From: Halanaerobium salsuginis
GTDB taxonomy: Bacteria > Bacillota > Halanaerobiia > Halanaerobiales > Halanaerobiaceae
Direction: 5' to 3'
DNA length: 64,000 bases
NCBI RefSeq assembly: GCF_900114545.1
Contig: NZ_FOTI01000002.1
Location: 62,001-126,000, forward strand
Below are positions 7,662-25,217 of this stretch, piece after piece. Below the pieces are notes generated by a model. The model was given only the letters and a program-made list of their open reading frames with translations. It was not told the DNA's origin and searched no databases. Each line of letters opens with the position of its first letter. Position 1 is the stretch's first letter. The position numbers and the translations under genes are program-made.

Positions 7662-9449
7662 TTCTTTAAATTGAGCTAGATAATCAGCAAATTTGGCAAT
7701 AGCATTTTCTATTACAGCTGGTTTTTCCATATCAACTCCAGCTTTAGCCATTAAATTGAGTGGATAGTCACTACCACCCGCCTTTAAAAATTCCCGATAA
7801 TTTGCTGCAGCTGTTTCGCCTTCCTGCAAGATCTTTTCAGCCAGAGCAGTTGCAGCAGAATATCCAGTAGCATATTTATAAACATAAAAGTTATAGTAAA
7901 AATGCGGAATTCTAGCCCATTCATAATCAAGCTTTTGATCAATAATTAGCTGTTCGCCAAAGTATTTACGATTAAGCTTCCTATACAGCTGTTTCATTCT
8001 TTCAGCAGTCAGACTCTCTCCTTTTTCTACCTCACTATGAATTATTTTTTCAAATTCAGCAAACATTGTTTGCCTGTATACTGTAGCTCTAAACCCTTCT
8101 AAAAAGTAATTTAATAGATAAAGTTTTTCTTCTCTAGTAGCTGCATTTTCTAGTAAATAACTAAGCAGCAAATTTTCATTTGTTGTTGAAGCAACTTCAG
8201 CCACAAATATTTTATAATCTGCATAGAGATAGGGTTGAGTCTGGTTAGCATAATAACTATGCATCGCATGACCCATCTCATGAACTAAAGTAAAGATATT
8301 ACTAATATCTTCGGTATAATTTAATAATATATAAGGATGAACTCCATAACATCCGCTAGAATAAGCTCCAGATCTTTTCCCTTTATTTTCATAAACATCT
8401 ATCCAGCCTGCTGAAAAAGAATCATTAACTATTTTAACATAGTCCTTACCTAAAGGTTTAAGTGCAGCCTTAATAATCTCTTTAGTTTCTTCATATTTAA
8501 ACTTTAAATCAGTTTCTTTAATTAAAGGTGTATAAATATCATAAACATGAAGCTCATCTAAGTTTAGTGCCTGCTTTTTTAAAGCAATATATTCCTGTAA
8601 TGGCTCAAGATTAGCGGAAACTGTATTAATTAAATTTTGATAGACATCAGGAGTAATATTATCATTATCCAGAGAAGCTGTCAGGGAGTCAGGATAATTT
8701 CTGGCCCGGGCATAAAAAACATCACTTTTAACATTAGTATCAAGTACAGAAGCAAAAGTATTAGCCAGTTTTTCATATTCTGTGTGCATAGCCTTAAAAG
8801 CATCCTTACGGAGCCGGCGTTCAGGACTTTTAAGAAAATCAATATACCTACCATGAGTTAAACGTTTTTCATCACCATTCTCTGTTTTAAGCAAAGGAAA
8901 TTCTAAATCAGCATTATTTAACATACTAAAGATATTTTCTGCTCCCTGAGTAACTTCACCTGCCAGAGCCAATATTTTTTCTTCTCCCTCAGATAAAAAA
9001 TGAGCTTTTTGTCTTAAAATATTAGCAAAAAAATGATCATAAAATTTAAGTTTTTCTTCCGTCTGACAATATTTTTTTAATTTTTCTGAACCAAGCTTAA
9101 TTAAAGCTGGCACCATAAAAGAAGTCTGGCTGGAAAGCTGATTATAACACATTAAAGCTTTATTTCTATAACCTTGATACTTATCAAGTGCTGTGTTTTG
9201 ATCATACTTTAAGTGAGCATAAGTATATAAACGAGCAACTTTTTTTTCTATCTGGATTATTTTTTCTAAAGCAGTCAATAAATTTTGGGCACTAGCAGTA
9301 AATTCAGCTTTTAAATCAGCTATATTTTTTACAGCAGCTAGAGCTTCATTTAATTCTGATTCAAAATCAGCATCACTACTATAAATAACAGTTAAGTCCC
9401 ATTTATATTTTTCAGCAATTTCTTTGCGATCTTTAAGTTCCTTAGACAA
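7653..9449 (-). CDS. pepF: Oligoendopeptidase F (M3 metallopeptidase)
   Basis: This cytosolic zinc peptidase of the M3B family cleaves oligopeptides. The zinc motif HEMGHAMHSYY lies within the usual context FTLVHEMGHAMH, and the C-terminal region shows QTMFAEFEKIIH and HFYYNFYVYKYATGYSAA, typical of PepF. I choose the TTG at 9449: AAGGAAG lies just upstream, and it gives 598 residues, close to the family's usual 600. An in-frame ATG 48 nt earlier would add residues unrelated to the family. The TTG overlaps the stop of the alkyltransferase gene by 8 nt, so translation is probably coupled. It is the last gene of the asnS unit. Confidence 0.92.
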   Translation of the reverse strand: MSKELKDRKEIAEKYKWDLTVIYSSDADFESELNEALAAVKNIADLKAEFTASAQNLLTALEKIIQIEKKVARLYTYAHLKYDQNTALDKYQGYRNKALMCYNQLSSQTSFMVPALIKLGSEKLKKYCQTEEKLKFYDHFFANILRQKAHFLSEGEEKILALAGEVTQGAENIFSMLNNADLEFPLLKTENGDEKRLTHGRYIDFLKSPERRLRKDAFKAMHTEYEKLANTFASVLDTNVKSDVFYARARNYPDSLTASLDNDNITPDVYQNLINTVSANLEPLQEYIALKKQALNLDELHVYDIYTPLIKETDLKFKYEETKEIIKAALKPLGKDYVKIVNDSFSAGWIDVYENKGKRSGAYSSGCYGVHPYILLNYTEDISNIFTLVHEMGHAMHSYYANQTQPYLYADYKIFVAEVASTTNENLLLSYLLENAATREEKLYLLNYFLEGFRATVYRQTMFAEFEKIIHSEVEKGESLTAERMKQLYRKLNRKYFGEQLIIDQKLDYEWARIPHFYYNFYVYKYATGYSAATALAEKILQEGETAAANYREFLKAGGSDYPLNLMAKAGVDMEKPAVIENAIAKFADYLAQFKELL

Positions 9450-9981
9450 AAGACATCTTCCTTTCCAAATTATTAGTTGTATTATTTTCATGCTCAAGAA
9501 GCCATCTTTTACGCCAAATCCCTCCTTGATAACCAGTCAACTTACCACTTTTAGCAATTACTCTATGACAGGGAATTATAACTGAGATTGGATTGCGTTC
9601 ATTAGCCTGCTCCACTGCTTTAACTGCCGTTGATTTACCGATTGCAGCTGCTATTTCAGAACAAGAACTAGTTCTGCCAAAAGGAATACTACTTAAATAT
9701 TTCCAGACTTTTAAGTCAAAACTACTTCCTTTTAAAGCTAAAGGAATATCAAAATCCGTTCTCTTTCCCATAAAATATTGATTCAGTTGATCAAAGATTA
9801 AATTATAAATAGCCAGCAATCTGGGATCTTCATAAAAATTCTGCTGACAATTATTTTTAACTTCACGTAGCTGATCATCAAACTCTACTTTTAAAAGAGA
9901 CTGCTGATTAAATTCAATTTTCAAAATCCCAATCGGGGAAGGATAATAGGTAAGATAGCTTAAATCATTCAATTTATTCAC
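9442..9981 (-). CDS. ogt: Methylated-DNA-[protein]-cysteine S-methyltransferase
   Basis: This suicide repair enzyme moves the alkyl group from O6-alkylguanine to its own cysteine. The acceptor motif IPCHRVI is present. The helix-turn-helix region reads FGRTSSCSEIAAAIGKSTAVKAVEQANERNP, with the usual arginine-finger position replaced by Lys-Ala (AVKAVEQAN). The N-terminal RNase H-like domain brings the length to a normal 179 residues. The longest start is GTG 9981, overlapping the upstream stop by 8 nt. TTG at 9972, 6 nt after AGGGGTG, is an equally good alternative and would shorten the protein by three residues. It lies between an exported flavoprotein and pepF. Confidence 0.9.
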   Translation of the reverse strand: MNKLNDLSYLTYYPSPIGILKIEFNQQSLLKVEFDDQLREVKNNCQQNFYEDPRLLAIYNLIFDQLNQYFMGKRTDFDIPLALKGSSFDLKVWKYLSSIPFGRTSSCSEIAAAIGKSTAVKAVEQANERNPISVIIPCHRVIAKSGKLTGYQGGIWRKRWLLEHENNTTNNLERKMSFV

Positions 9982-11812
9982 CCCTGATAAATTTCAGATA
10001 TTCTGGAGTCGGAAAACGGTCTAAAAAATGAGCAGCTAAAATAATCATTTCACTGCGCTTTAATTTTTTATCATGATTAAATTCAGCCAGCAATGATGGA
10101 GGAATTAAATTCAATTCTACTGCTTTTTGATAGTATTCTGCAACTGGTATTTCTAAAACACGCTGACTTTCTGCTGCTAGAAGTAATTTTAAAGCATTAG
10201 TTGTAGTTAATAATTTATCTTTGCTGCTTAAAGTTTCCAGACTACCTGGTACCCACTCATAAAGAGTAGCAGCCTCTTTTTTCTGCATTATTTTCAAAAT
10301 AACTGCTGTAAAATTTCTTTCTGTTGGAACTTCATTTAACTTAAAGTCATTATTATAACCACCAATCATTATTCCCCATGATAAAAGTTTTATTAAATCA
10401 TCATTAACTTTTTCTAACTTAACAATTGGCAATTTAGCGGGAAGCTCTGTTAAATTAAGTTCTAATTGCTGTTGAATTTTATTAATACTCCTAGAATCAG
10501 CTGCCACTGCTAACAAAGGCTTTGCTTTGCTTATTGACTCCGCTGCTGCAACACCTGCTGCCTGCCCAGTATTAATTCCTACTGGTAAAACACGGGCACT
10601 TGCTGCTGCTAACGAAGCATAGCCACTACTTCTACCTACAATCATTAAATTATCATGATGCCGAGCAATTAAAGTACGGAGAGGAATTGTATAATAGCCA
10701 GGATTAAAAAGCACAAATCCTGGATATTTAATTCCTGCTGCTTGATAATCAAGCGGATAAGAAGCAATGGTTATGGCATCTGAGAAAACTCTCTGTTCAA
10801 ATAAATCAGCTATTTTAAGCTGGTAGTTAGTTAAAAAGTGACGGCTTTCTCGCCGATATAACTCTGGCGGCATAGCTGCTAATTCTGCATTTTCAAAACC
10901 AGCTAGACCTTCTTTTAAATAATTTAAAATATATCGAGCTTCCTGATGAGCAATCTTTTTAGCCTGTTCTCTCGAGTCATCAGAAAGCGGGTTAACTCCA
11001 AACAATAACAGGGCATTAATATAAGCAGTATATTTTTGCTCTCCATCTCTTACAAAAACAATATTTAAACCTCGCAAGCGTAGATTAGGATTATGGCTTT
11101 GATAGGACTTACCAAAATTAGAAAAACCCCAGGCATGATCATCTTTAAAATAACTCTGCTGATAATTTTTTATTTTTGCTTTTAATTTATTTGGATTAAC
11201 ATGTTCAAACTTCAAAATTTGAGTTGAAGCCATCCAGCTATTTTTAAGATTCATATCAGCTGTACCGACAAAAAAATCTTCCCCAGCTTTATAAGCTAGA
11301 TCACCGTCCTGAGAAGCATCAATAAAAATATCAGCTTTAACTAAATATTTCTTTCCATTACGTTTAATTAAAAGACCTGTTATATTTTGATCTTTGCTAT
11401 TTACCTGTTCAAGTCTAACTAAATTAAGTGTTTTTAGATTTTTTTCAGCTTTAATTAAATTAAGAAAAGCATCTTCAGCCTGACGGGGATCAAAAGAAAT
11501 ACCTCCCCCAACTTTCTGGTGCCATTCATGGAAAATCCCCCGATTAATATTACGAGAATAACTATCATAATTTAAATCAAGAAAGTTTAAACCAGCATAA
11601 GTCATTAAACCACCAGGCTGTGATCTGCTCAAAAGAAGCAAAGTTTTTTTACCTTCACGAGCTGCAGCTACTGCTGCTGCAACACCTTCCGGCTCTCCTG
11701 CATAAATAACTATTTCTGCCTGCAACTTTTCTGGCTGATCAGCTAAAACAGCATTCGAACTTCCTCCTAAAAAAAGAGCGATAATTAAAGTTAATAATAT
11801 TGTTTTTTTCAT
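9974..11812 (-). CDS. Exported FAD-dependent oxidoreductase with S-layer-homology-like tail
   Basis: A 612-residue protein begins with a Sec signal peptide (MKKTILLTLIIALFLGGSSN, cleavage probably near VLA-D). The FAD-binding region has an altered dinucleotide motif, YAGEPEGVAAAVAA. The sequence also shows GGLMTYAGLNFLD, DASQDGDLAYKAGE and VGRSSGYASLAAASARVLP, as in the FAD_oxidored (PF12831) family, whose substrates are mostly unknown. After about residue 470, the segments LLSWGIMIGGYNNDFKLNEV and LKRSEMIILAAHFLDRF look like degenerate S-layer homology repeats. These could tether it to the cell wall or outer envelope. A FAD protein exported by a Sec-type signal is noteworthy. It follows asnS by 8 nt with a GGGGGG ribosome site. 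Confidence 0.75.
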   Translation of the reverse strand: MKKTILLTLIIALFLGGSSNAVLADQPEKLQAEIVIYAGEPEGVAAAVAAAREGKKTLLLLSRSQPGGLMTYAGLNFLDLNYDSYSRNINRGIFHEWHQKVGGGISFDPRQAEDAFLNLIKAEKNLKTLNLVRLEQVNSKDQNITGLLIKRNGKKYLVKADIFIDASQDGDLAYKAGEDFFVGTADMNLKNSWMASTQILKFEHVNPNKLKAKIKNYQQSYFKDDHAWGFSNFGKSYQSHNPNLRLRGLNIVFVRDGEQKYTAYINALLLFGVNPLSDDSREQAKKIAHQEARYILNYLKEGLAGFENAELAAMPPELYRRESRHFLTNYQLKIADLFEQRVFSDAITIASYPLDYQAAGIKYPGFVLFNPGYYTIPLRTLIARHHDNLMIVGRSSGYASLAAASARVLPVGINTGQAAGVAAAESISKAKPLLAVAADSRSINKIQQQLELNLTELPAKLPIVKLEKVNDDLIKLLSWGIMIGGYNNDFKLNEVPTERNFTAVILKIMQKKEAATLYEWVPGSLETLSSKDKLLTTTNALKLLLAAESQRVLEIPVAEYYQKAVELNLIPPSLLAEFNHDKKLKRSEMIILAAHFLDRFPTPEYLKFIRGE

Positions 11813-11820
11813 TTGCCCCC

Positions 11821-13212
11821 CTAAAATTTGGCAGAACCAGGAGTTCTAGGAAATGCTATTACATCTCTAATATTTTGCATACCAGAAAGATACATTAGCA
11901 ATCTTTCAAAGCCAAGTCCAAATCCAGAATGAGGAACTGAACCATATTTTCTAATATCTAAAAACCATTGATATTTTTCCAGGTCCATTTCAAGTTCTTC
12001 CATTCTTGCTTTTAAAACATCATAACGTTCTTCCCGCTGACTGCCACCAATAATTTCACCAACTCCAGGCACCAGGCAGTCAACAGCTGCTACTGTTTTT
12101 TGATCTTGATTCATTCTCATATAAAAAGCCTTAATTTCTTTGGGATAATCTGTTACCATAACTGGTTTCTTGAAATATTCTTCAGTTAAAAAGCGCTCAT
12201 GTTCTGACTGTAAATCGATACCCCAACTAACTGGATATTCAAAATCAGCTTTGCTTTTTTCCAAAATATCTACTGCCTCAGTGTAAGTAATCCGTCCAAA
12301 ATCAGCTTCTACAATATCAGCAATAATTTGCTGTCTACCTTTATCTATCCATTTGTTAAAAAATTCCATTTCTTCTGGTGACTGCTGAAGAGCAAAATTA
12401 AACAGATTTTTAATAAAGTCTTCCATTAGTGTCATCATTTCAGTTAAATCGCAAAAAGCCATTTCTGGTTCAATCATCCAGAATTCAGAAGCATGTCGAG
12501 AAGTATTAGAATTTTCAGCTCTAAAAGTAGGGCCAAAAGTATAAACATCTCCTAGAGCTGTTGCCATTAATTCAGCTTCAAGCTGACCACTAACAGTTAA
12601 ACCAGTCTCTTCACCAAAAAAATCCTGAGTATAATCAATAGCTCCCTGATCATTCTGAGGTAAATTTTTAAAATCAAGTGTAGAAACTTTAAAAACTTCT
12701 CCTGCTCCTTCAGCATCTCCAGCAGTAATTATTGGAGTATGAATATACTTAAAATCATTCTTGTAAAAATAATCATGAACCGCATAAGACATCTTACTCC
12801 GAAAGCGGTTAATAACACCAAAAGTATTAGTTCTTGGTCTTAAATGAGCAATTTCTCTTAAAAATTCAAAACTATGTCTTTTTTTCTGCAATAGATAATC
12901 TGCTGGAGCCTCACCAATGATCTCTAACTGCTCTACTTTCATTTCAACAGACTGCTCTCTTCCTTCAACTTTATCAATATAACCTGTAACTTTAATACTT
13001 GAACCGGTATTTATCTCAGCCAGAGGAAATTCTTCTGGTTCCAGGATTACTAATTGTAAATTTTTAAGACAACTGCCATCATTAATCTCAATAAAGGCAA
13101 TGTTTTTAGAAACCCGTTTAGTTCTAACCCAACCCATAACAATGATATCATTATATTGTTCAATTTGATCAGCCAAAATATTTTTTATTTTTTTTCGTGC
13201 AAAATAATTCAT
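11821..13212 (-). CDS. asnS: Asparaginyl-tRNA synthetase
   Basis: This class IIb aminoacyl-tRNA synthetase charges tRNA-Asn. The 463-residue protein has an N-terminal OB-fold anticodon-binding domain (about residues 15-110). Class II motif 2 is FRAENSNTSRHASEFWMIEPE and motif 3 is SGFGLGFERLLMYLSG. The TFRAENSNT signature and the C-terminal AFPRTPGSAKF are typical of AsnRS rather than AspRS. The start ATG is 13212 with GGAGGT upstream. It heads a minus-strand unit with the exported flavoprotein, ogt and pepF. No T-box leader is visible upstream, although asnS is a T-box gene in some Firmicutes. Confidence 0.96.
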   Translation of the reverse strand: MNYFARKKIKNILADQIEQYNDIIVMGWVRTKRVSKNIAFIEINDGSCLKNLQLVILEPEEFPLAEINTGSSIKVTGYIDKVEGREQSVEMKVEQLEIIGEAPADYLLQKKRHSFEFLREIAHLRPRTNTFGVINRFRSKMSYAVHDYFYKNDFKYIHTPIITAGDAEGAGEVFKVSTLDFKNLPQNDQGAIDYTQDFFGEETGLTVSGQLEAELMATALGDVYTFGPTFRAENSNTSRHASEFWMIEPEMAFCDLTEMMTLMEDFIKNLFNFALQQSPEEMEFFNKWIDKGRQQIIADIVEADFGRITYTEAVDILEKSKADFEYPVSWGIDLQSEHERFLTEEYFKKPVMVTDYPKEIKAFYMRMNQDQKTVAAVDCLVPGVGEIIGGSQREERYDVLKARMEELEMDLEKYQWFLDIRKYGSVPHSGFGLGFERLLMYLSGMQNIRDVIAFPRTPGSAKF

Positions 13213-13290
13213 TCATTCTACCTCCATACAATTAACTTTATTATTAAACTTAATCTTATAATTTCTACTAATATATAAACTTCTCGTAAA

Positions 13291-13319
13291 GCAGATTAAA
13301 TCCTGCTCTGAGATTTAAT
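13291..13319 (-). promoter_or_regulatory. Two overlapping alternative hairpins in the asnS upstream region
   Basis: On the minus strand, ATTAAATC (13319-13312) can pair with GATTTAAT (13302-13295). The same GATTTAAT also lies in the loop of a second hairpin made by GCAG and CTGC (13306-13303 and 13294-13291). Both lie about 85 nt before asnS. It may be a leader structure or a chance AT-rich repeat. Confidence 0.25.
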
Positions 13320-13353
13320 TAAAAATCAAAAAAATAATTTTAAGCAGTTAAAA

Positions 13354-13376
13354 GCCCGGAGCTTAAGCCCCCGGGC
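13354..13376 (-). terminator. Terminator after the desulforedoxin gene
   Basis: A GC-rich stem (GCCCGG...CCGGGC, extended by GC/GC after one mismatch) with a TTAA loop is followed on the minus strand by TTTT. It lies 34 nt beyond the desulforedoxin stop and isolates that gene from asnS. Confidence 0.85.
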
Positions 13377-13409
13377 CATTTAAATTATTCTCACTTAATT
13401 AAGTAGTAG

Positions 13410-13535
13410 TTATTTTTCTTCTAAAGTCATTGGTTGTCCACAGCAAACTAATTCGCCACCGCCAACTTCTTTTACTTCAACTACATTTCCACAAACTTCA
13501 CAGCGATAAACTTCCCCAACTTTTTCTACATTCAT
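13410..13535 (-). CDS. Desulforedoxin-like small iron protein
   Basis: A 41-residue protein that short-ORF filters would miss. It has four cysteines in the desulforedoxin arrangement: CEVC (residues 12 and 15) and an adjacent pair CC (31 and 32) in [10 protein letters not shown]. In that family they bind one Fe(SCys)4 centre per subunit. As a free polypeptide this is desulforedoxin; the same fold is the N-terminal domain of class I desulfoferrodoxin (superoxide reductase). The start ATG 13535 has AGGAGG 7-12 nt upstream, and a terminator follows. It is most likely a small electron carrier in oxygen or superoxide defence in an anaerobe. No superoxide reductase catalytic domain is fused or adjacent. 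Confidence 0.88.
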
Positions 13536-13622
13536 AGTTTAGCCTCCTTTGCATGTTAAAATTTGCTAAGCTGAATAAAAGCTCTAAAATAATTATATTG
13601 CAAATCTGTAATTATTTCAATC

Positions 13623-14846
13623 TTAATTATTTATCTGGTTAAGGCGAAATTCCTTATGTAAGATATTTAAAGCCTGATCTGCCTGTTCTTTAGCAATTAA
13701 ACATGATATTTTTATTTCAGAAGTAGTAATCATTGCTATATTAATATTATTTTTACCAAAAGCAGAAAACATTCTAGCAGCAATACCTGGTGTAGACTGC
13801 ATTCCAGCTCCTACTATAGAAATTTTAGCTACATCACGATCAATATGATAATTATCAATATTAAGTTCAGGATTAATTTTTTCCAGAACTTTAACTGCCT
13901 TTTTTTCCTGCTCCTGATTTATAGTAAAAGTAATATCATTTAATTCATCTCGCTGTAAATTCTGAATAATCATATCAACATTTACCCCTTCAGCAGCAAG
14001 AGCATTAAATAGTTTACCAGCAATACCTGGTTCATCAGGAACTCTTTCTACAGTAATTTTTATTTCGCCCAGATCACTGGCCGCACCAACTACATTTTTT
14101 TTACCTTCCATCTCCTCATCTCCTCTTACAATTGTGCCTAAAGTATCATTAAAACTTGATGCAATATATAACTCAAGGTTATAACTATTTGCTAACTCCA
14201 CTGCTCGCGGATGTAAAACATTAGCCCCTAAATTCGCTAATTCCAACATTTCATGATAAGAAATATAATCAAGTTTGCTAGCATCAGTAACTATTCTAGG
14301 ATCAGCAGTATAAACTCCATCTACATCCGAATAAATTTCACAGCGATCAGCTTCAATAGCAGCTGCAACTGCAACTGTTGTTGTATCAGAACCACCTCGT
14401 CCTAATGTAGTAAAATCATGATTTTTATTAACTCCCTGAAAACCAGCGACTATTACAATCTTATTTTCAGCTAATTCCTTTTTTAAACGAGTCGTATCAA
14501 TGTCTGTTATCATAGCCTGATTATGCTTTTCATCAGTTTTTATTTCAATCTGACTACCAGTTAGAGAAATTGCTGGATAGCCACAGGCATGAATTGCCAT
14601 TGTCAAAAGAGCAATCGAAACCTGCTCTCCAGTTGTTAATAACATATCTACTTCTCTGGGATCAGGGTCATCTGTAATCTTGCCCATTAAATCAATCAAA
14701 TGGTCTGTAGTATCACCCATTGCTGAAACTACTACAATCATTTGGTTTCCTGCTTCATAGCCTTTAATTACTCGCCTGGCAACATTTTTAATTAATTCAG
14801 GTGTTGCGACAGAACTTCCTCCATACTTTTGTACTATTAGTGACAC
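13623..14846 (-). CDS. lysC: Aspartate kinase
   Basis: It phosphorylates aspartate, the first step towards lysine, threonine and methionine. The 407-residue protein has the amino-acid kinase motif VQKYGGSSV at the N-terminus. The substrate and ATP motifs are TLGRGGSDTTTVAVAAA and CEIYSDVDGVYTADPR. Two ACT domains at the C-terminus (from about residue 265) usually bind lysine or threonine for feedback inhibition. The start is a GTG at 14846 behind GAAGGTG. It is the last gene of a thrB-hom-lysC unit, 33 nt after hom. The catalytic motifs look intact, unlike those in the adjacent hom. Confidence 0.95.
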   Translation of the reverse strand: MSLIVQKYGGSSVATPELIKNVARRVIKGYEAGNQMIVVVSAMGDTTDHLIDLMGKITDDPDPREVDMLLTTGEQVSIALLTMAIHACGYPAISLTGSQIEIKTDEKHNQAMITDIDTTRLKKELAENKIVIVAGFQGVNKNHDFTTLGRGGSDTTTVAVAAAIEADRCEIYSDVDGVYTADPRIVTDASKLDYISYHEMLELANLGANVLHPRAVELANSYNLELYIASSFNDTLGTIVRGDEEMEGKKNVVGAASDLGEIKITVERVPDEPGIAGKLFNALAAEGVNVDMIIQNLQRDELNDITFTINQEQEKKAVKVLEKINPELNIDNYHIDRDVAKISIVGAGMQSTPGIAARMFSAFGKNNINIAMITTSEIKISCLIAKEQADQALNILHKEFRLNQINN

Positions 14847-14879
14847 CTATTTCACCTTCCCTATACTTAGTTAAAATAA

Positions 14880-16172
14880 TTACTTTTCTTTGATTGGAAT
14901 AATATTATTAACTGTTAAAACTCCTGCCAGAGACTCTATTTTGGTCAGCAATTCCTCCAGATGGCTTTCTTTAATGTTCTTAGTTTTAATTATTAAGGGC
15001 AATAAAGGAGTTTCAGTTAAGCTATCTTTTAAAAATAACTCTGCTAAGTCCTGTTTAGTAAAAATTTGTTTTATCTTATTAATAAGTTCATCACTTTTTT
15101 CAATCTGCAGTCTAACATAAAAAGACTGCTCTATCTCACAATCAAGATTTTTAATTTGATAAGTATGCTCTTGTTTAGTATATTTATTACCCTGGGGAAG
15201 AACACAATCCTGCTGTAAAAATCTTATTGCTCGTATCAGATCGGTAATTATGTTTTGGGCAACTGGCTCACTTGAAGTATTATTAATAGTTAAATTAATC
15301 TTTTTACTATATCGAGCCAGTAATTCAATCCCACTGTTATTTCCAGAAACTGAAGCTAAATACTTATCTTTTTTAATCAAACGCGGTCTAACTGCAAGTT
15401 CAAGCTTATTATCTACTTTAAGTACAGTAGCCACTAGTTTTATTTTATAACCCAACTCAGCTGCATAAATCAAGTCATAACTAGTTATTCCCTTGATTCC
15501 TTTTACTGGTATTAGTTCAGGCTCAACTACTGTATTAAAAAAGCGATTACAGAGTAAAGCCAATCTAGCTGCACTGGCATATCCTTCTAAATCATAATCA
15601 GGGTCATTAAGTATATAATTAAATTCTTCTGCCCGGGCCAGAGTTTCCTTTAAGCTAATTGTCTTAGCTTCCATAACTGAAAGAATATAATTAGTAGTTC
15701 CATTCAAAATAGCATCAAATTTAATTACCTCATCTGTTAGCAAATATTGATCAAAACTAGTGCTGGCAAAAAAAGTTGGCAGCACACTGTTATCAAAAAA
15801 CAAATTACTCTGGGCAGCTGTAGATTTTTTCACTAGTTTAACAAAATTATTGGCAATAGCACGGCAATTATTACTCACAACCAATTTATTGTTTTGTAGT
15901 GCCTGCTGACAGTAAGTTAAAGATAATTCACTTTTAGCAGTTAAGTCAATTACAATATCCAATTCGGGATCATTAACTATTGTCGAAAAATCATCTGTTA
16001 ATATTTTACTGCTTTTTAACTCAGGATGCAAGTCTTGTACTGACTCAAATAATAAATATTTTAATTTGATTCCAGATTCAGTTAAATTAGTTAACTCTGA
16101 CTGCTTTTTTTCAAAAATATTTAAAAATGTTCTAGCAATCTTCCCTGTGCCAAGTAAAGCTATATTAATCAC
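14880..16172 (-). CDS. Homoserine dehydrogenase family protein lacking the catalytic residues
   Basis: The fold is that of homoserine dehydrogenase: a nucleotide-binding GTGKIA near residue 8, the NGTTNYILSVME motif, a DPDYDLEGY segment, and a C-terminal ACT-like domain (from about residue 330). The length of 430 is normal. However, every residue that carries out catalysis in studied enzymes is changed. The lysine of the usual 'ANK' motif is Cys103 (SNNCRAIAN). The glutamate before the DP motif is Leu188, the catalytic aspartate is Ala199 and the neighbouring lysine is Arg203. The reading frame is intact and sits between thrB (8-nt overlap) and lysC, so it is expressed with threonine-pathway genes. 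It is either a pseudoenzyme/regulator or an enzyme with other chemistry. Start is GTG 16172 behind GGAGGAGG. Confidence 0.8.
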   Translation of the reverse strand: MINIALLGTGKIARTFLNIFEKKQSELTNLTESGIKLKYLLFESVQDLHPELKSSKILTDDFSTIVNDPELDIVIDLTAKSELSLTYCQQALQNNKLVVSNNCRAIANNFVKLVKKSTAAQSNLFFDNSVLPTFFASTSFDQYLLTDEVIKFDAILNGTTNYILSVMEAKTISLKETLARAEEFNYILNDPDYDLEGYASAARLALLCNRFFNTVVEPELIPVKGIKGITSYDLIYAAELGYKIKLVATVLKVDNKLELAVRPRLIKKDKYLASVSGNNSGIELLARYSKKINLTINNTSSEPVAQNIITDLIRAIRFLQQDCVLPQGNKYTKQEHTYQIKNLDCEIEQSFYVRLQIEKSDELINKIKQIFTKQDLAELFLKDSLTETPLLPLIIKTKNIKESHLEELLTKIESLAGVLTVNNIIPIKEK

Positions 16173-17085
16173 TATCTAGTGCCTCCTCCTGAACTAACTG
16201 ATAAGTATTTTTATTATATCCTTTTAAGATATAAGAATTAACTGCTATTTTATGCCTTTTAAAAACAGCCTCCATAGCAGCTGCAATTTCAGCTGCTTTA
16301 CTGCTAGTAATAGCAAGAAAAGTAGGTCCAGCACCACTTAAAGCTGCTCCCCAGGCCCCTGCATTATAAGCATTAGCTATTACCTGCTCAAAACCAGGGA
16401 TTAATTGCTTGCGATAAGGTTGATGAAGCATATCATCCATACCAGCCTTAAGCAGCTGATAATCAGCAGTTAAAAATGCAGCAGTCAATAAACTAATTCG
16501 ACCCAAATTAAAAACGCTTTGCTGATAATTTAATTTAGCAGGTAAAACTGATCTTGCTTGAATAGTTTTTAATTCAAAATCAGGAATAACAGTAACAAAA
16601 TCAAGTTCAGCTGCTAATTTGATCTTTAAATATTTGTCAATATTATTCTGTTTATAGTTAATAATCAGACCACCTATCAGAGCAGGAACTACATTATCAG
16701 GATGTTTTTCTAACGCAACTGCTAATTTAATAAATTCACTTTCGGAAATAAAATGTTTTGACATTAGAGCAGCTGCAAGCAGTCCCCCGATTATTGCAGC
16801 AGAACTACTGCCTAAACCGCGCGCCAGAGGGGTTTGCATTTTTTCTATAATTAGAGCTGGTACTGGTGGCTCTTTTATGTAATTAAAATAATAATGATAA
16901 GCTTTTAAAATCAAGTTATCAGATTGTAAAATATTTATTTCCTTTCCAGTCAGATCAAAAACTTCAATTTTTAACTGCTCACTTTTCTCTACTTTAAAAT
17001 AATTAAAAAGATTTAAAGCAATTCCTACTGTATCATAACCAGATCCCAGATTAGCTGAGGTAGCTGGTACTTTAAATTCAGGCAT
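16165..17085 (-). CDS. thrB: Homoserine kinase (GHMP family)
   Basis: This GHMP kinase makes O-phosphohomoserine for threonine synthesis. Of its 306 residues, the N-terminal PATSANLGSGYDTVGIALN, the ATP-binding PLARGLGSSSAAIIGG, the KHPDNVVPALIGG motif and the C-terminal ALSGAGPTFLAI are all present and in the right order. The active site therefore looks functional, in contrast to the dehydrogenase encoded next. It starts at ATG 17085 with GAAGGG upstream. It is the first gene of the thrB-hom-lysC unit and overlaps hom by 8 nt. No threonine synthase gene is in the window. Confidence 0.92.
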   Translation of the reverse strand: MPEFKVPATSANLGSGYDTVGIALNLFNYFKVEKSEQLKIEVFDLTGKEINILQSDNLILKAYHYYFNYIKEPPVPALIIEKMQTPLARGLGSSSAAIIGGLLAAALMSKHFISESEFIKLAVALEKHPDNVVPALIGGLIINYKQNNIDKYLKIKLAAELDFVTVIPDFELKTIQARSVLPAKLNYQQSVFNLGRISLLTAAFLTADYQLLKAGMDDMLHQPYRKQLIPGFEQVIANAYNAGAWGAALSGAGPTFLAITSSKAAEIAAAMEAVFKRHKIAVNSYILKGYNKNTYQLVQEEALDSD

Positions 17086-17124
17086 AAAAATTTTCCCTTC
17101 TTCCTAACATAATTTAAACTTTAT

Positions 17125-17565
17125 CTAGACAGAGCTGACTCCTGTATGACCAAAACCACCTTTTCCCCGTGAACTTTCACTTAAATCATCAACTTCTTCC
17201 CATTCGATTAAATTAACCTGCTGAATAATTAATTGAGCAATCCGATCATTAAATTTAACTTTAAAATCAGCCGGACCATGATTAATTAAAATTACTCCTA
17301 TTTCACCTCGGTACCCGGAATCAATTACTCCATCTGCATTTAAAACAGTTATTCCTTTTTTTAACGCTAACCCACTTCTTGGATAAACAAATGCTGCATA
17401 TCCACTAGGTACTGCTATTTTTAAACCTGTTTTGATTAATTTATATTCACCAGACTTGATAGTCAATTCTTCTGCTGCATGAAGATCAAGACCAGCGTCT
17501 TCACCATAGTGCTGATATTCTGGTAATTTAACTGCTTCATTTACCTTTTCTACTTTAATTTGCAA
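17125..17565 (-). CDS. dut: Deoxyuridine 5'-triphosphate nucleotidohydrolase
   Basis: This trimeric dUTPase hydrolyses dUTP to dUMP and keeps uracil out of DNA. The 146-residue protein has the conserved motifs: GEDAGLDLHA, PRSGLALKKGI, NADGVIDSGYRGEIGV, RIAQLIIQ and the C-terminal SSRGKGGFGHTG that closes over the substrate. The start is TTG 17565 with GGAGG 9 nt upstream, overlapping the preceding deacetylase gene by 11 nt. The length is typical. Confidence 0.95.
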   Translation of the reverse strand: MQIKVEKVNEAVKLPEYQHYGEDAGLDLHAAEELTIKSGEYKLIKTGLKIAVPSGYAAFVYPRSGLALKKGITVLNADGVIDSGYRGEIGVILINHGPADFKVKFNDRIAQLIIQQVNLIEWEEVDDLSESSRGKGGFGHTGVSSV

Positions 17566-18397
17566 GATCTTTTGCCTCCTTAAGTTGATATTGTAAACCT
17601 GTAACGGAACTTATCCGATAATTATTCTTATAGATTAGCTGATCAATTTTTACAAATTGATATTTTTCTTTTAAAATCGGAATTAATTTATTCAATATCT
17701 CTACTACATTAGCAGCATTATTATGAAATAAAATAATATCACCAGCAGTGATATTATTTTTTACTCGTTCAATTATATATTCCGGACCAGGATCCATCCA
17801 ATCATGTGAATCAAGACTCCATTGTACCACTTGATAACCAAGCTGACGAGCTATTCGAATAACTAAATTATTATATTCACCATAGGGTGGTCGAAAAAGC
17901 ATTGTTTTTTCCTCTCTCATAACATGTTCAGCCAAAATTTGCTCTGTTTTTTTTAATTCAGATTTAATTTCAACTGCAGTTAAAGAATTAAGATGAGGAT
18001 GAGTATAACTATGATTATAAACAGCATGTCCAGCTTTTAAGATCTTATCTAATAATACTGGATTTTTTTCTAACCAGATACCAGCAAAAAAGAAAGATAC
18101 TTTAATATCCTGCTGTTTAAAAAGTTCTAATAGCTGTTCTGTATGTTTGCTTCCCCAGGCACCATCAATTGTTAAAGCAATTTTATTGTCTTTACGCTCA
18201 ACTTTATAAATAGGTACCAGACGTTGTCCAGTATAATCATTGCTAAAATTAATTGAATCAACAGCTGCAGCTGCTGATTCAGCCTGACAGAAAAACAAAT
18301 TAAAAGTGAGCATAGTCAATAAAAAGCCCATAATTAAACTGCTCTGAACAAAAATGTTACTCTGCTGCAACTGATAATTAATTGTTTTATTTAACAT
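17555..18397 (-). CDS. Polysaccharide deacetylase family protein, membrane-anchored
   Basis: This NodB-type deacetylase has 280 residues, with an N-terminal signal or anchor segment at about residues 16-38 (SSLIMGFLLTMLTFNLFF). The domain motifs are ALTIDGAWGSKHTEQ (motif 1), HSYTHPHLNSL with the two metal histidines (motif 2), and LFRPPYGEYN (motif 3). Motif 1 normally reads TFDDG; here it is TIDGA, so the catalytic Asp (78) remains but the metal-binding Asp is a glycine, a variant seen in sporulation-associated members. It probably removes acetyl groups from peptidoglycan or another wall sugar outside the membrane. It lies next to a SleB-type hydrolase gene, which supports a wall or spore-cortex role. 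Confidence 0.85.
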   Translation of the reverse strand: MLNKTINYQLQQSNIFVQSSLIMGFLLTMLTFNLFFCQAESAAAAVDSINFSNDYTGQRLVPIYKVERKDNKIALTIDGAWGSKHTEQLLELFKQQDIKVSFFFAGIWLEKNPVLLDKILKAGHAVYNHSYTHPHLNSLTAVEIKSELKKTEQILAEHVMREEKTMLFRPPYGEYNNLVIRIARQLGYQVVQWSLDSHDWMDPGPEYIIERVKNNITAGDIILFHNNAANVVEILNKLIPILKEKYQFVKIDQLIYKNNYRISSVTGLQYQLKEAKDLAN

Positions 18398-18405
18398 AAG
18401 ATCAC

Positions 18406-19332
18406 CTATTTCATAAAGACATGATCACCTATTTTAGTAATTTTACGTCTGCCCCTAAAGAAACTTACCCGGGTAGCTGTCCGGGGATTGTAAAAATAGA
18501 GAGCACCTCCGGTAGGATCTATTCCCCGCAAAGCATCTCTTGCAGCACGATAAGCAGTCTGATTAGGAGCTAAATTAATCTGGCCATCCATAACTGCTGA
18601 AAACTGTCCCCGCTGATAAATGACTTCTGCAAAGGTGTTAGGAAACTGCCAATTTAAAACACGATTAATAATTACTGCTGCTACTGCAACCTGTCCCTGG
18701 TAAGGTTCACCTCTTGCTTCCCCATAAACTGCCCGGGCCAGCAAATCAAGTTCCTTTTTACTTACTCGATGATTAAGAACTTGGTGAGGAGTTAAGTTAT
18801 TAATCGGCAGTCTAATCCGCTCACCTACACGCAAATAATTATCACTTTTATTATTTAAAGCTAAAATAGTGCCAATAGTAGTACTAAAGTCTCGAGCCAG
18901 ATCATAAAGAGTATCACCTCTACCAACATAATAGTTAATAATTTTATCAGCCGGTATTTGATCAATATTAACTTTTTGTTTATTGACATTTATTCTGACC
19001 GCATAATGAGTATTAAGATCAAAATTTAATTGTTGATCTCTACTACTAAAAGCTGCCATTAAATCAGGTGTTTTTACAGTATTTGGGTCAGTATTTTTAA
19101 CTGGTATTACCAACTCATCCCCCATTTTGATTGCAGAATGTCCAACTAAATCATTAGCTTTAATCAGCTCACTAACACTTATACCATAGTCAGCAGCTAT
19201 TTCAGAAAGAGTGTCTCCCTGTTGAATTACATATAATAAATTTAAAGCGGGAGCTGCTGCTGAACTAATTGTTACAGCAATCATTAATAAAAATAAAAAA
19301 AAGCAGCTCAAATAAATAGCTCTATTTTTCAA
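18406..19332 (-). CDS. Two-LysM cell-wall hydrolase, SleB-like
   Basis: This is an exported wall hydrolase of 308 residues. The N-terminus is hydrophobic and ends in a SSAAAPA-like cleavage region. A first LysM follows (YVIQQGDTLSEIAADYGIS, about residue 34), then a second (YYVGRGDTLYDLARDFSTT, about residue 125). The C-terminal part (from about residue 195) is a SleB/Hydrolase_2 domain: LARAVYGEARGEPYQGQVAV with the catalytic glutamate, then INRVLNWQFPNTFAEVIYQ and GALYFYNP. SleB-type domains are lytic transglycosylase-like enzymes of the spore cortex or general wall turnover. The start is TTG 19332. With the adjacent deacetylase it forms a wall-remodelling pair, downstream of a DNA helicase gene on the same strand. 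Confidence 0.88.
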   Translation of the reverse strand: MKNRAIYLSCFFLFLLMIAVTISSAAAPALNLLYVIQQGDTLSEIAADYGISVSELIKANDLVGHSAIKMGDELVIPVKNTDPNTVKTPDLMAAFSSRDQQLNFDLNTHYAVRINVNKQKVNIDQIPADKIINYYVGRGDTLYDLARDFSTTIGTILALNNKSDNYLRVGERIRLPINNLTPHQVLNHRVSKKELDLLARAVYGEARGEPYQGQVAVAAVIINRVLNWQFPNTFAEVIYQRGQFSAVMDGQINLAPNQTAYRAARDALRGIDPTGGALYFYNPRTATRVSFFRGRRKITKIGDHVFMK

Positions 19333-19348
19333 ATTTGCTCACTACTCC

Positions 19349-21787
19349 TTACTCTATTTTTTCGATAATTTTCTGCTGGGTAGTCTCAATAACTGGACAG
19401 GAATCTGGTAGTGACTGCAAAAACATTTTACCATATTTTCTATCTTTTAATCGACGATCATATAAAATAATTAGTCCCTTATCTTTTTTAGATCTAATCA
19501 ATCTGCCAAATCCCTGCCGAAATCTAATCACAGCATCTGGTAAAGCTAAATTAAAAAATGGATTTAGCCCCTGTTTTTCCAACAATTTTTCTTTAGCTTT
19601 ATAAAGAGGTTCTCCTGGAACTGGAAAAGGAAGTTTTACCATAACTAAATACTTAAGTAAATCACCAGGTAGATCCACTCCTTCCCAAAAGCTAGAAGTA
19701 CCAAAAATAACTGTATTAGATTCAGTCTGAAACTGCTGTAGAATATAATTACGTGATAACTTAGATTGAGCCAGTAGTCTAATCCCCTGATCTTCTAGAT
19801 TAGCCTGCAGATTATTATAGCAGTAATTTAGCATATAATAAGAAGTAAATAAAACCATAGTTGAACCAGTGGTCTTCTTTAATAAAGCTGCTAAGCTGCT
19901 AACTAATTCTGGTAAAAATTCTTTTTTATTTGGCTCAGGAAAATCTAATGGGATTAGAAGCTGTGCCTGCTTTGCATAATCAAAAGGGGATTCTACTTTC
20001 AGCTCAGCAGCCTGTTTAATTCCAGTTTGTTGATAAAAGTAATTAAAAGATCCAGCTGTAGTAATAGTAGCCGAAGTAAAAATAATATTACTCAGACGAG
20101 ACCAGATTAAATCCGGTAGAAATTTCCCAACATCAATTGGTACTGACTTTTGTACAACTTGAGTATTACCTCTATAATAGCTTGATTCTAGCCAGAAAAC
20201 ATAGTTTTCATCTTCAGCAGCTAAATTAAATTCAACTCGTTTGATTAAATCCTGGCAGCGGCCAATTGTAGATTTTAATTTTAATTCATTCTCATCATTA
20301 CTCTCAGCTAACTCCAGGTAAAGATTCTCATAAATAATTTGCAGATAGGTAAGTTCATTTTTTAAGTAAGCAGCCAGATCTATTGCTGTCTGAAAAAATT
20401 CCTGCCAGACTGCATTATTTTTTACTTTTTCATTAACTGTAATTTTTTTATCTTTAAACTCACCAATTAAATCTTGTAATTCTTTAAAATATTGTGGAAT
20501 TAGATCTCTAATTTTCTGAGCAGTTGGAATTAAACGTTTATCAAGAATTTCTCTCATTCTAGCTTGATCACAGCCAATTGTAAAAGAAATATCCTCTCTA
20601 ATTTGAGATAAAAGCGAATTTTTTTCTCCACTTAACCTTTTTAACCAGCGGTCCAGCAATGATTGGTAAAGAGGATAGCCCAGGTGGGCAGTAGCAATCT
20701 CACCAATATTATGTGCCTCATCTATAATTAAATGATTAAAATTAGGTAAAATACCCCGACCTGCTGAACCAGTTTCAACTTTAACCCGGGCATCAGATAA
20801 AAGTAGATGATGGTTTACAATTAAAATATCAGCTCGATAAACTTCTTTTCTAGCCTGCATAAAATAACATTTATTATAAAAAGGACAGGCTGTTTTTAAA
20901 CAAAGATCACTTTCAGCAGCTATTTCATTCCAGACAGCTGCTTTAATTTGAAAATCAATTTCTGATTTTTCCCCAGTTTTAGTATTTTCTTTCCAATCAT
21001 TTAGTTCTTCAAATAACTCAATTGTTATTTCTGTCTCCTGCTGCTGATATTTTTGTTTAAAATTCTTATATTTACGCAAACAAAGATAATTATTTCTTCC
21101 TTTAACCAAAACTGCTTTAAAATCAAAGTCAAGGACTCTTTTTAAAATTAATAAGTCTTTATTGACTAACTGTTCCTGTAAGTTAATTGTATTGGTAGAG
21201 ACTACTATCTTAGCATTATTTAAATTATTATAAAAAAGAGCAGGTATTAAATAAGCAAAAGATTTACCGGTTCCAGTCCCGGCCTCAATAAAATCAATCT
21301 GATGCTGATTAAAAGAATCAATTATTTTTTCAGCTGTAATAAGCTGCTCTTTTCTTTCTGAAAAGTTCTCTAATTCCTGATCTAAATTACCCTCTTTTTT
21401 AAAATAATTTAAGATTTCTTTTTTGTTTAATTTTTTATTTACTCTGCCAGGTCCAGCTTCAACTACTACATAAATTTGCTCAGCTTGATTATTAATGATA
21501 GCAAAACCTATATCCCGCTCAGCTAATTTTGCGGCAAGTCTAATATCAGGTGCTGAAGGAGTTAAATCTCCAGAAGGATGATTATGAACAACCATTTCTC
21601 CAGCAGCCAAATTGTTAATTACTGCTGGGGCTGAGTAACTGTTACCCCGGGCTAAAACTTCAAACTCACTAATAATACCAGCTTCATCTAACTGAGTTCT
21701 AATAAAAATTTCATTTCCCTGTACTGCATCAATTTCTGCCTTTATATCCTTACCAACCCCGGCCAATAAGTCTCTACTAACAGCCAC
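19349..21787 (-). CDS. JAMM/RadC-like domain fused to a DinG/XPD-family helicase
   Basis: The 812-residue protein has two parts. Residues 1 to about 112 form a JAB/MPN domain of the RadC type with a complete JAMM motif: Glu26, then His68-x-His70, Ser78 and Asp81 in VVHNHPSGDLTPSAPD. Residues from about 145 form a superfamily 2 DinG/XPD helicase. Its motifs are Walker A EAGTGTGKS (168-176), an iron-sulfur cysteine set (CLRKYKNF, then CLKTACPFYNKCYF), the DEAH box LIIDEAHNIGEIA, and the C-terminal TSSFWEGVDLPG and FRQGFGRLIRSKKDKG. DinG helicases unwind DNA 5' to 3' and act on R-loops and replication conflicts. Many Firmicutes DinG proteins carry a DnaQ-like exonuclease at this position instead. 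The start is GTG 21787 behind GGGAGGAG. The role of the JAMM domain is unknown. Confidence 0.9.
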   Translation of the reverse strand: MAVSRDLLAGVGKDIKAEIDAVQGNEIFIRTQLDEAGIISEFEVLARGNSYSAPAVINNLAAGEMVVHNHPSGDLTPSAPDIRLAAKLAERDIGFAIINNQAEQIYVVVEAGPGRVNKKLNKKEILNYFKKEGNLDQELENFSERKEQLITAEKIIDSFNQHQIDFIEAGTGTGKSFAYLIPALFYNNLNNAKIVVSTNTINLQEQLVNKDLLILKRVLDFDFKAVLVKGRNNYLCLRKYKNFKQKYQQQETEITIELFEELNDWKENTKTGEKSEIDFQIKAAVWNEIAAESDLCLKTACPFYNKCYFMQARKEVYRADILIVNHHLLLSDARVKVETGSAGRGILPNFNHLIIDEAHNIGEIATAHLGYPLYQSLLDRWLKRLSGEKNSLLSQIREDISFTIGCDQARMREILDKRLIPTAQKIRDLIPQYFKELQDLIGEFKDKKITVNEKVKNNAVWQEFFQTAIDLAAYLKNELTYLQIIYENLYLELAESNDENELKLKSTIGRCQDLIKRVEFNLAAEDENYVFWLESSYYRGNTQVVQKSVPIDVGKFLPDLIWSRLSNIIFTSATITTAGSFNYFYQQTGIKQAAELKVESPFDYAKQAQLLIPLDFPEPNKKEFLPELVSSLAALLKKTTGSTMVLFTSYYMLNYCYNNLQANLEDQGIRLLAQSKLSRNYILQQFQTESNTVIFGTSSFWEGVDLPGDLLKYLVMVKLPFPVPGEPLYKAKEKLLEKQGLNPFFNLALPDAVIRFRQGFGRLIRSKKDKGLIILYDRRLKDRKYGKMFLQSLPDSCPVIETTQQKIIEKIE

Positions 21788-21804
21788 CTTAGCTCCTCCC
21801 TCAA

Positions 21805-22644
21805 TTAATCCCTTAATTTATGTAATAAAATAATATCATCATCTTTGTTACAATCATCAAAACTAGGTGTTTCCAGAATAAAAACTTTATCTTGCAGCTG
21901 AGGGTTATTAATAATCCGGGCAATTGCCTTTTTACCTAGCTTTCCCTGTCCAGGATGAGCATGCTCATCTTTTTTACTTCCAGAATCATGTTTTGAATCA
22001 TTAAGGTGAATAACTTTTAATTTATCTAGTCCAATTTCAGTTTTAAAGTCATCTAAAAGATGTTCAAATTCACTTTTTTTAGTCAGGTTATATTCAGCTG
22101 CAAAAGCATGACAGCTATCCAGGCAAACACCAATTTTCTCTGGTTGATCAAGTTTGTCTATTATCTGCCCCAACTGAGAAAATTTCGCTCCAATAGTTGT
22201 TCCTGCTCCAGCAGTATTTTCCAATAGAATCATCGTATCACTCTCTACTTCTGCTAAAATATCATTTAACGCCTGACTTATCCTGTTAATACCCGCTTTA
22301 AAACCTGATCCTGTATGACTACCAGGATGAAAAACCAGGTATTCAGCTCCTAATCTGTCACAACGTTTATACTCAGATTTGAGAGCTGAAATTGATTTTT
22401 CCCAGAGTTCTTGTTTAGGAGAGGCAAGATTAATCAGGTAAGCTGCATGAACTACAACTGGATTAATATTATATTTATTTCGTTTCTGCTTAAATTCTTT
22501 AATTTCGGCAGCTGGTAAGTCTTTATTTTTCCAGCCCCTTGGATTACCCACAAAAATCTGCATTGTATTACAGTCAATAGCAGCAGCCCGGGCTGGTGAC
22601 TCAGCAATTCCTCCAGCAATAGATACATGTTTACCTAAGATCAT
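21805..22644 (-). CDS. nfo: Endonuclease IV (AP endonuclease)
   Basis: This three-zinc TIM-barrel enzyme cuts DNA 5' of abasic sites. Visible in its 279 residues are GKHVSIAGGIAESPARA, VVHAAYLINLASP, YLVFHPGSHTG, ILLENTAGAGTTIG, CLDSCHAFAAEYN, VIHLNDSKHDSGSKKDEHAHPGQG and FILETP, which carry the metal-binding His, Glu and Asp residues. The length is normal. The start is ATG 22644. It is flanked by pnp and the JAMM-DinG helicase gene on the same strand with 17-28-nt gaps, so a DNA-repair grouping is plausible. Confidence 0.96.
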   Translation of the reverse strand: MILGKHVSIAGGIAESPARAAAIDCNTMQIFVGNPRGWKNKDLPAAEIKEFKQKRNKYNINPVVVHAAYLINLASPKQELWEKSISALKSEYKRCDRLGAEYLVFHPGSHTGSGFKAGINRISQALNDILAEVESDTMILLENTAGAGTTIGAKFSQLGQIIDKLDQPEKIGVCLDSCHAFAAEYNLTKKSEFEHLLDDFKTEIGLDKLKVIHLNDSKHDSGSKKDEHAHPGQGKLGKKAIARIINNPQLQDKVFILETPSFDDCNKDDDIILLHKLRD

Positions 22645-22672
22645 TTTCTTGAATACTCCTTTTTATTTACTC

Positions 22673-24763: not shown

Positions 24764-24787
24764 TATTTTACCTCCTTATTTAATTAA

Positions 24788-24810
24788 AGAGCGGGGAGAA
24801 TCCCCGCTCT
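24788..24810 (-). terminator. Hairpin terminator between rpsO and pnp
   Basis: A perfect 10-bp GC-rich stem (AGAGCGGGGA / TCCCCGCTCT) with a 3-nt loop is followed on the minus strand by TTTAATTAAATAA. It probably terminates part of the rpsO transcripts before pnp. Confidence 0.85.
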
Positions 24811-24825
24811 TTTATCGTCTGCATC

Positions 24826-25092
24826 TTAACCGCGAATTCCTAATCTAGAAATTAGATCACGATAACGCATAATATCATTATTTTTTAAATATCTGAGCAG
24901 TTTTCTTCTTTGACCAACCATTTTCAAAAGACCACGTCTTGAATGGTGATCACTTTTATGCTCTTTTAAGTGTTCAGTTAATTCAGCAATTCTGGCTGTT
25001 AATAAAGCAACTTGTACTTCAGAAGAACCAGTATCACCTTCCTCTAACTGATATTCCTTAATAATTTCCTGCTTTTTTTCTTTATTTAACAT
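24826..25092 (-). CDS. rpsO: 30S ribosomal protein S15
   Basis: S15 is a primary 16S rRNA-binding protein. The protein is 88 residues from ATG 25092, matching the family length. The start is chosen because GGAGGTG lies 9 nt ahead; a GTG inside that site, 12 nt earlier, is less likely. It has the typical [32 protein letters not shown] and RRKLLRYLK motifs. It has its own promoter and a structured leader, and is separated from pnp by a terminator. Confidence 0.97.
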
Positions 25093-25119
25093 TAAAAAAT
25101 TCACCTCCTAAAATTCAAT

Positions 25120-25170
25120 TCGCCATTAGCCAAGAAGACGTCGGAGATTCGCAATCCTAGCAAATGGTAA
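25120..25170 (-). promoter_or_regulatory. Candidate S15 autoregulatory leader
   Basis: In the roughly 90-nt rpsO leader, CCATT (25167-25163) can pair with AATGG (25127-25123), with nested GC/GC and a small GATT-GCG-AATC hairpin inside. This branched fold is of the kind S15 binds in other bacteria, where it represses its own translation. The fold was read by eye and not scored. Confidence 0.4.
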
Positions 25171-25188
25171 CTTAAAACTTACTTTTTA

Positions 25189-25217
25189 ATTTTAACATAA
25201 AACCTTTCTTGTGTAAA
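25189..25217 (-). promoter_or_regulatory. Sigma-A type promoter of rpsO
   Basis: Read on the minus strand: TTTACA (25217-25212), a 17-nt spacer, and TAAAAT (25194-25189). It overlaps the end of ribF and gives rpsO a separate start, about 90 nt upstream of its ATG. Confidence 0.65.

Follow-up and report, generated by a model that had tools for sequence, protein, structure and literature searches.

The residues with which homoserine dehydrogenases (HSDs) hold their substrates are known from the Pyrococcus horikoshii structure, in which Lys116 and Lys215 contact the C4 hydroxyl of homoserine, Asp206 contacts the carboxylate, and the nicotinamide is kept in place by Gly296 together with Thr300 (PMC4495429). 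Bacillus subtilis HSD is a tetramer, an assembly ascribed to its ACT domain, and ACT domains, which aspartokinase also has, commonly dimerise edge to edge (PMC9728202). In other pathways, paralogues that have lost their catalytic residues are retained, as with the AdoMetDC prozyme (PMC5201418) and the TSB-like pseudoenzyme (PMC12727527). Full-text searches of an open-access library found no description of an HSD pseudoenzyme. Here we describe a candidate, homX, from Halanaerobium salsuginis, located within a window of 64,000 nucleotides (the whole stretch of DNA that was analysed).

The plus strand at 14880-16172 is full of stops, and the 430-residue open reading frame lies on the minus strand. 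Transcription runs through dut, thrB, homX, lysC and asnS, in this order; the first 8 bases of homX overlap the end of thrB, lysC begins 33 bases past the end of homX, and thrB, homX and lysC form one operon on the minus strand. We looked for an RNA switch for this operon, and found no Rfam family across window positions 9000-26000. With a dN/dS of about 0.10 versus 0.03-0.05, the operon thrB (16165-17085) evolves at two to three times the rate of lysC, and its identity with the thrB of the other Halanaerobium genomes is 55-58%. The features are:

14880..16172, minus strand: homX, degenerate homoserine dehydrogenase paralogue, 430 aa, GTG start
15873..16172, minus strand: former NAD(P)-binding domain, homX residues 1-100; GTGKIA present, Gly79-Gly80 lost
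15864..15866, minus strand: Cys103, replacing the ANK lysine; P. horikoshii equivalent Lys116
15774..15779, minus strand: Pro132-Thr133, replacing Gly-Gly of the SVAGG motif; lost in every degenerate copy
15609..15611, minus strand: Leu188, replacing the active-site Glu (alignment to solved HSDs)
15576..15578, minus strand: Ala199, replacing Asp (alignment to solved HSDs)
15564..15566, minus strand: Arg203, replacing Lys; P. horikoshii equivalent Lys215
15273..15281, minus strand: Asn-Thr-Ser 298-300, replacing Gly-Ala-Gly near the nicotinamide; lost in every degenerate copy
14883..15131, minus strand: C-terminal ACT domain, homX residues 348-430; most constrained part
13623..14846, minus strand: lysC, the genome's only full-length aspartokinase
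16165..17085, minus strand: thrB, homoserine kinase; 8-base overlap with homX

Judged by similarity along its full length, homX is a homoserine dehydrogenase by descent. It matches PF00742 at 3e-35 in a profile search, scores 238.8 bits against NF004976 (cutoff 205), and also exceeds the cutoff for PF03447; its structural homologues, identified by sequence, are 4pg4, 3mtj and 6dzs. Residues 136-245 align without gaps to solved HSDs, so that the assignments at 188, 199 and 203 are sound, and the best-matching solved HSDs have the ANK lysine opposite Cys103. The initial annotation had proposed that the four classical residues (Lys, Glu, Asp, Lys) are replaced by Cys103, Leu188, Ala199 and Arg203, and the alignment to solved enzymes bears this out; the spacings equal those in P. 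horikoshii HSD, with Lys116 first and then Glu200, Asp206 and Lys215 (PMC4495429). Asp194, the equivalent of the carboxylate-binding Asp206 (PMC4495429), is retained. Beyond the classical residues, Gly79-Gly80, Gly132-Gly133 and Gly298-Ala299-Gly300 are replaced: homX keeps GTGKIA, and of the motifs around the nicotinamide, SVAGG reads SVLPT and GAGxxPT reads NTSSEPV. As a control we took 30 HSDs from elsewhere in the phylum, a set picked to take in second copies and the lowest scorers, and every one of the 30 keeps all five residues K/E/D/D/K. Nor did we find, judging the gap-free alignment by eye, any suitable residue at another position that could supply the catalytic groups. Assembly error or chance was ruled out as a source of the substitutions, given an intact frame, changes in four separate codons and degeneration throughout the clade. 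As far as its residues indicate, homX is an enzyme homologue with its catalytic residues lost, as in pseudoenzymes, and we hold with considerable confidence that it does not function as a dehydrogenase.

A true hom had been predicted elsewhere in the genome, and we found one, fully canonical, on another contig (G000:C45:23989-25257), about 28% identical to homX. Indeed, among the 38 genomes of the order that we searched, almost all from Halanaerobium carry two hom copies. In the phylogenetic tree the operon copies form one clade (support 100/99), and the canonical copies form the other, grouping with the hom genes of other families. The canonical hom is the active paralogue that supplies the reaction, with a single exception (G014, see below). 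Intact operon copies exist in the sister genus (G022), where this is the sole hom, and in two Halanaerobium genomes (G011 and G013). Since the only hom of the sister genus occupies the same site between thrB and lysC, the family's native hom was probably the operon copy. The intact operon hom of G011 (L035) and G013 (L037) stands alongside a canonical hom, an apparent redundancy stage preceding the loss of function in the sister lineage. The nine degenerate copies form a single clade (support 100/99); long branches were flagged in the tree, and the fine placement of the H. salsuginis and G014 copies is less sure than the grouping of the clades. The order dut-thrB-homX-lysC is conserved throughout the relatives, except that the operon of G014 has no thrB. 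Among 299 genomes of the phylum, we found no homX orthologue outside Halanaerobiaceae clearly closer to it than an ordinary HSD.

Sequence divergence is concentrated in homX: within Halanaerobium, LysC is 79-89% identical to the protein encoded in the window, versus 34-46% for homX. Of 90 positions invariant in canonical enzymes, 42-55 are lost in the degenerate copies compared, against 8 in G022 and 13 in G011 and G013. Eighteen of these losses, among them Gly79-Gly80, Ala101, Gly132-Gly133 and Gly298-Ala299-Gly300, are common to all eight representatives of the degenerate clade that we compared, and the residues are retained in the intact copies. This pattern suggests that inactivation most likely began in the common ancestor of the degenerate clade, and then continued lineage by lineage. 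The lineages differ in what they lost later. H. salsuginis homX lacks all four classical residues, with GTGKIA and NGTTNYIL present; in the other degenerate copies the GxGxxG loop is gone, and mostly the ANK lysine too, and NGTT reads NATT in all but one of them and NPNT in G014, while most retain Glu, Asp and Lys at 188, 199 and 203. Degenerate orthologues exist in related genomes, but the pattern of four substitutions is peculiar to this species. The initial annotation had noticed neither this nor the different losses in relatives, nor the probable native status of the operon copy.

Despite its divergence, homX is retained as a protein under purifying selection. Every recovered copy has an open frame, with zero frameshifts and no stop, whereas neutral simulation with 0.25 substitutions per site produces some 12 stops. 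The simple dN/dS method that we used saturates at deeper pairs, and we therefore relied mainly on close ones. Close pairs of degenerate copies gave dN/dS values of 0.20 (G016/G018), 0.12 (G017/G019), 0.23 (G010/G015) and 0.19 (G012/G017); the corresponding values were 0.03-0.06 in lysC and in canonical hom, and about 0.10 in thrB. Within homX, the same kind of pairs gave 0-0.13 for the ACT domain and 0.08-0.50 for residues 1-135. We also compared changes per site between homX and canonical hom over the same species tree, obtaining 2.46 versus 0.62 for the NAD domain, 2.09 versus 0.20 for the active-site segment (residues 101-135), 1.22 versus 0.46 for residues 136-240, 1.58 versus 0.28 for residues 241-316, 2.97 versus 0.42 for the linker, and 0.89 versus 0.52 for the ACT domain. 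The contrast of NAD domain plus active-site segment against ACT, in homX versus canonical hom, has a Fisher p of 4e-5, which serves as a guide only, because changes counted along a tree partly depend on one another. The ACT domain is conserved at 73-77% within degenerate copies, compared with 82% in the canonical enzyme. Constraint has thus moved to the C-terminal ACT domain and the neighbouring core, while the NAD domain and the active-site segment have collapsed.

The ACT domain of homX is itself unusual. It is 29% identical to the canonical one in degenerate copies and 25% in intact ones, and it lacks the DxPGV ligand turn of canonical ACT domains, reading KSDEL or KDEEI instead, intact members included; a threonine-binding role is therefore unsupported. 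The conserved motifs TETPLLP and GVLTVNN stand in for DxPGV. Since the intact members for the most part have these motifs too, the ligand of the domain may have changed before catalysis was lost. An AlphaFold model of homX, built from 3 sequences, had a mean pLDDT of 45.6 and is too weak for active-site geometry, its usable portions being the ACT domain and some of the NAD domain. The predicted ACT region (350-427) reached a pLDDT of mostly 76-86, and Foldseek matched it to the ACT domain of 3ibw (TMt 0.75). HSDs were also top-ranked by Foldseek, but with a TM of about 0.37, which adds little to the sequence evidence.

One genome, G014, separates homX from the homoserine branch. It is a single contig of 2.3 Mb, 99% complete, in which our searches found no canonical hom, no match over the family cutoff for thrB or thrC, and no metA; metX is absent from all genomes of the family, so that only MetA is informative. 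Nevertheless, homX persists there, flanked by dut and lysC, and its frame of 426 residues is open. Comparison of its ACT domain with those of the other close degenerate copies gives 69-72% identity, only slightly lower than the 73-84% found between most of these; the rest of the protein has diverged further than the ACT domain. Between G010 and G014, dN/dS is 0.15 (0.07-0.33) for ACT and 0.42 (0.30-0.58) for the whole protein, and this latter rise could mark the onset of decay. In these Halanaerobium genomes LysC is the only full-length aspartokinase, and it is still needed for diaminopimelate and lysine. The linkage of homX to the sole aspartokinase was thus kept after the other pathway genes had been lost, in this one genome. 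Such retention is explained if homX works with LysC, but not if it works with Hom alone.

Three genomes from other families of the order (G001, G024 and G026; 95-99% complete) present a different situation, with thrB and thrC over the cutoff, no PF00742 homoserine dehydrogenase, and only weak short-frame matches to PF03447 or none. Perhaps homoserine reaches them from an unknown source, or a non-homologous enzyme makes it.

We think it probable, on balance, that homX is a catalytically dead homoserine dehydrogenase retained as a non-catalytic regulatory or assembly subunit, with LysC as its likeliest partner. The initial annotation had left two choices, a pseudoenzyme regulating the pathway or a dehydrogenase for another substrate. 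We favour the former, with regulation being what we infer, because of the clade-wide loss of motifs, the shift of constraint to ACT, and the retention of homX without a homoserine branch. That homX still catalyses, either as a weak homoserine dehydrogenase or on another substrate, appears very improbable. The H. salsuginis copy does retain GTGKIA, NGTTNYIL, Asn102 and Asp194, Arg203 is a conservative change, and most relatives have Glu, Asp and Lys at 188, 199 and 203. However, both substrate-contacting lysines are replaced in H. salsuginis, the GG, SVAGG and GAG motifs are gone in all degenerate copies and the GxGxxG loop in most, and segment 101-135 is among the fastest evolving (2.09 versus 0.20), the opposite of what a settled enzyme with a new substrate would show.

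The enzyme to which homX is paralogous forms oligomers (tetramers in B. subtilis; PMC9728202), and homX might instead be a dead subunit in mixed oligomers with canonical Hom, activating or restraining it, for which the trypanosome prozyme and its AdoMetDC set a precedent (PMC5201418). A canonical hom is indeed present in seven of the nine genomes with a degenerate homX, the other two being G014 and G019 (83% complete). Yet G014 has homX and no canonical hom, and the two proteins, about 28% identical, have unlike ACT domains (29% identity in degenerate copies, 25% in intact ones); by analogy with the prozyme, such an arrangement could occur, but we regard it as unlikely here. We find it similarly hard to believe that homX is a slowly decaying relic, relaxed after the second hom appeared, whose constraint stems from the harm of misfolding or from a translational link between thrB and lysC. 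Its fast evolution (34-46% identity versus 79-89% for lysC), the different residues lost between lineages and the 8-base overlap with thrB would all fit, but every close pair has a dN/dS well below 1, lowest in ACT (0-0.13), no recovered copy has a frameshift or any of the dozen stops that neutrality would give, and the ACT domain is nearly as conserved as in the enzyme (73-77% versus 82%), whereas translational coupling alone would not keep ACT residues. The choice of LysC as partner of a non-catalytic subunit has its own difficulties: since ACT domains self-associate, homX might be a homodimeric sensor with its site of action elsewhere, and we noticed no sign of a matching change in LysC.

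The subunit hypothesis would imply the following history. The ancestral operon copy between thrB and lysC would have been the native hom; once a second hom was present elsewhere, an ancestor shared by most species would have lost the NAD(P) and substrate site of the operon copy, each lineage then losing further residues, up to all four classical ones in H. salsuginis. The canonical copy would make homoserine, while the homX protein, still encoded intact, would be selected mainly for its ACT domain and adjoining core, and would act without catalysis on LysC, which is the sole aspartokinase, also bears ACT and has its gene 33 bases downstream. Contact with LysC is plausible, because ACT domains dimerise edge to edge and aspartokinase has them. 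The lack of dehydrogenase activity, the contact with LysC and any ACT ligand are inferred, and we would put homX as a regulatory or assembly partner, with LysC the best candidate, at slightly under an even chance. More tentatively still, homX may be a dead HSD that now serves exclusively as a subunit of a monofunctional aspartokinase. The pair would be ThrA in split form, with the HSD half surviving in its regulatory role only, and this even in a species without the homoserine pathway.

The degenerate genes at this locus, though they score as homoserine dehydrogenase, are very probably not such enzymes, and will mislead metabolic models. The step at which lysine, threonine and methionine synthesis begins may also be under a further control that has gone unrecognised. 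One conserved operon offers a natural gradient between a working enzyme (G022; G011 and G013) and a non-enzyme (nine genomes), so that the steps from enzyme to pseudoenzyme are directly testable. A deposited cross-linking model (PDB 9a5i) places a homoserine dehydrogenase (DHOM) in complex with MTNK; HSDs may have unexpected partners.

Compared with the three-domain bacterial HSDs (B. subtilis Hom, Staphylococcus aureus 4pg4, T. denitrificans 3mtj; NF004976), homX has the same three domains, equal length, and the pathway neighbours thrB and lysC adjoining it; unlike them, it has both catalytic lysines, the Glu and one Asp replaced, and lacks the GG, SVAGG and GAG motifs as well as the DxPGV turn of ACT. 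As in ThrA and MetL, and in the family of paired Pyrococcus aspartokinase subunits (TIGR02078), an aspartokinase is paired with an HSD-derived protein, here through adjacent genes; unlike in ThrA and MetL, there is no fusion, the HSD-derived part would be non-catalytic, and a physical pairing is only proposed. With the AdoMetDC prozyme (PMC5201418) and the TSB-like pseudoenzyme (PMC12727527), homX shares the loss of catalytic residues in a retained paralogue. Those two are eukaryotic and biochemically proven, whereas homX is bacterial and its role is deduced; TSB-like acts on a different enzyme of its own pathway (PMC12727527), and we propose the same for homX.
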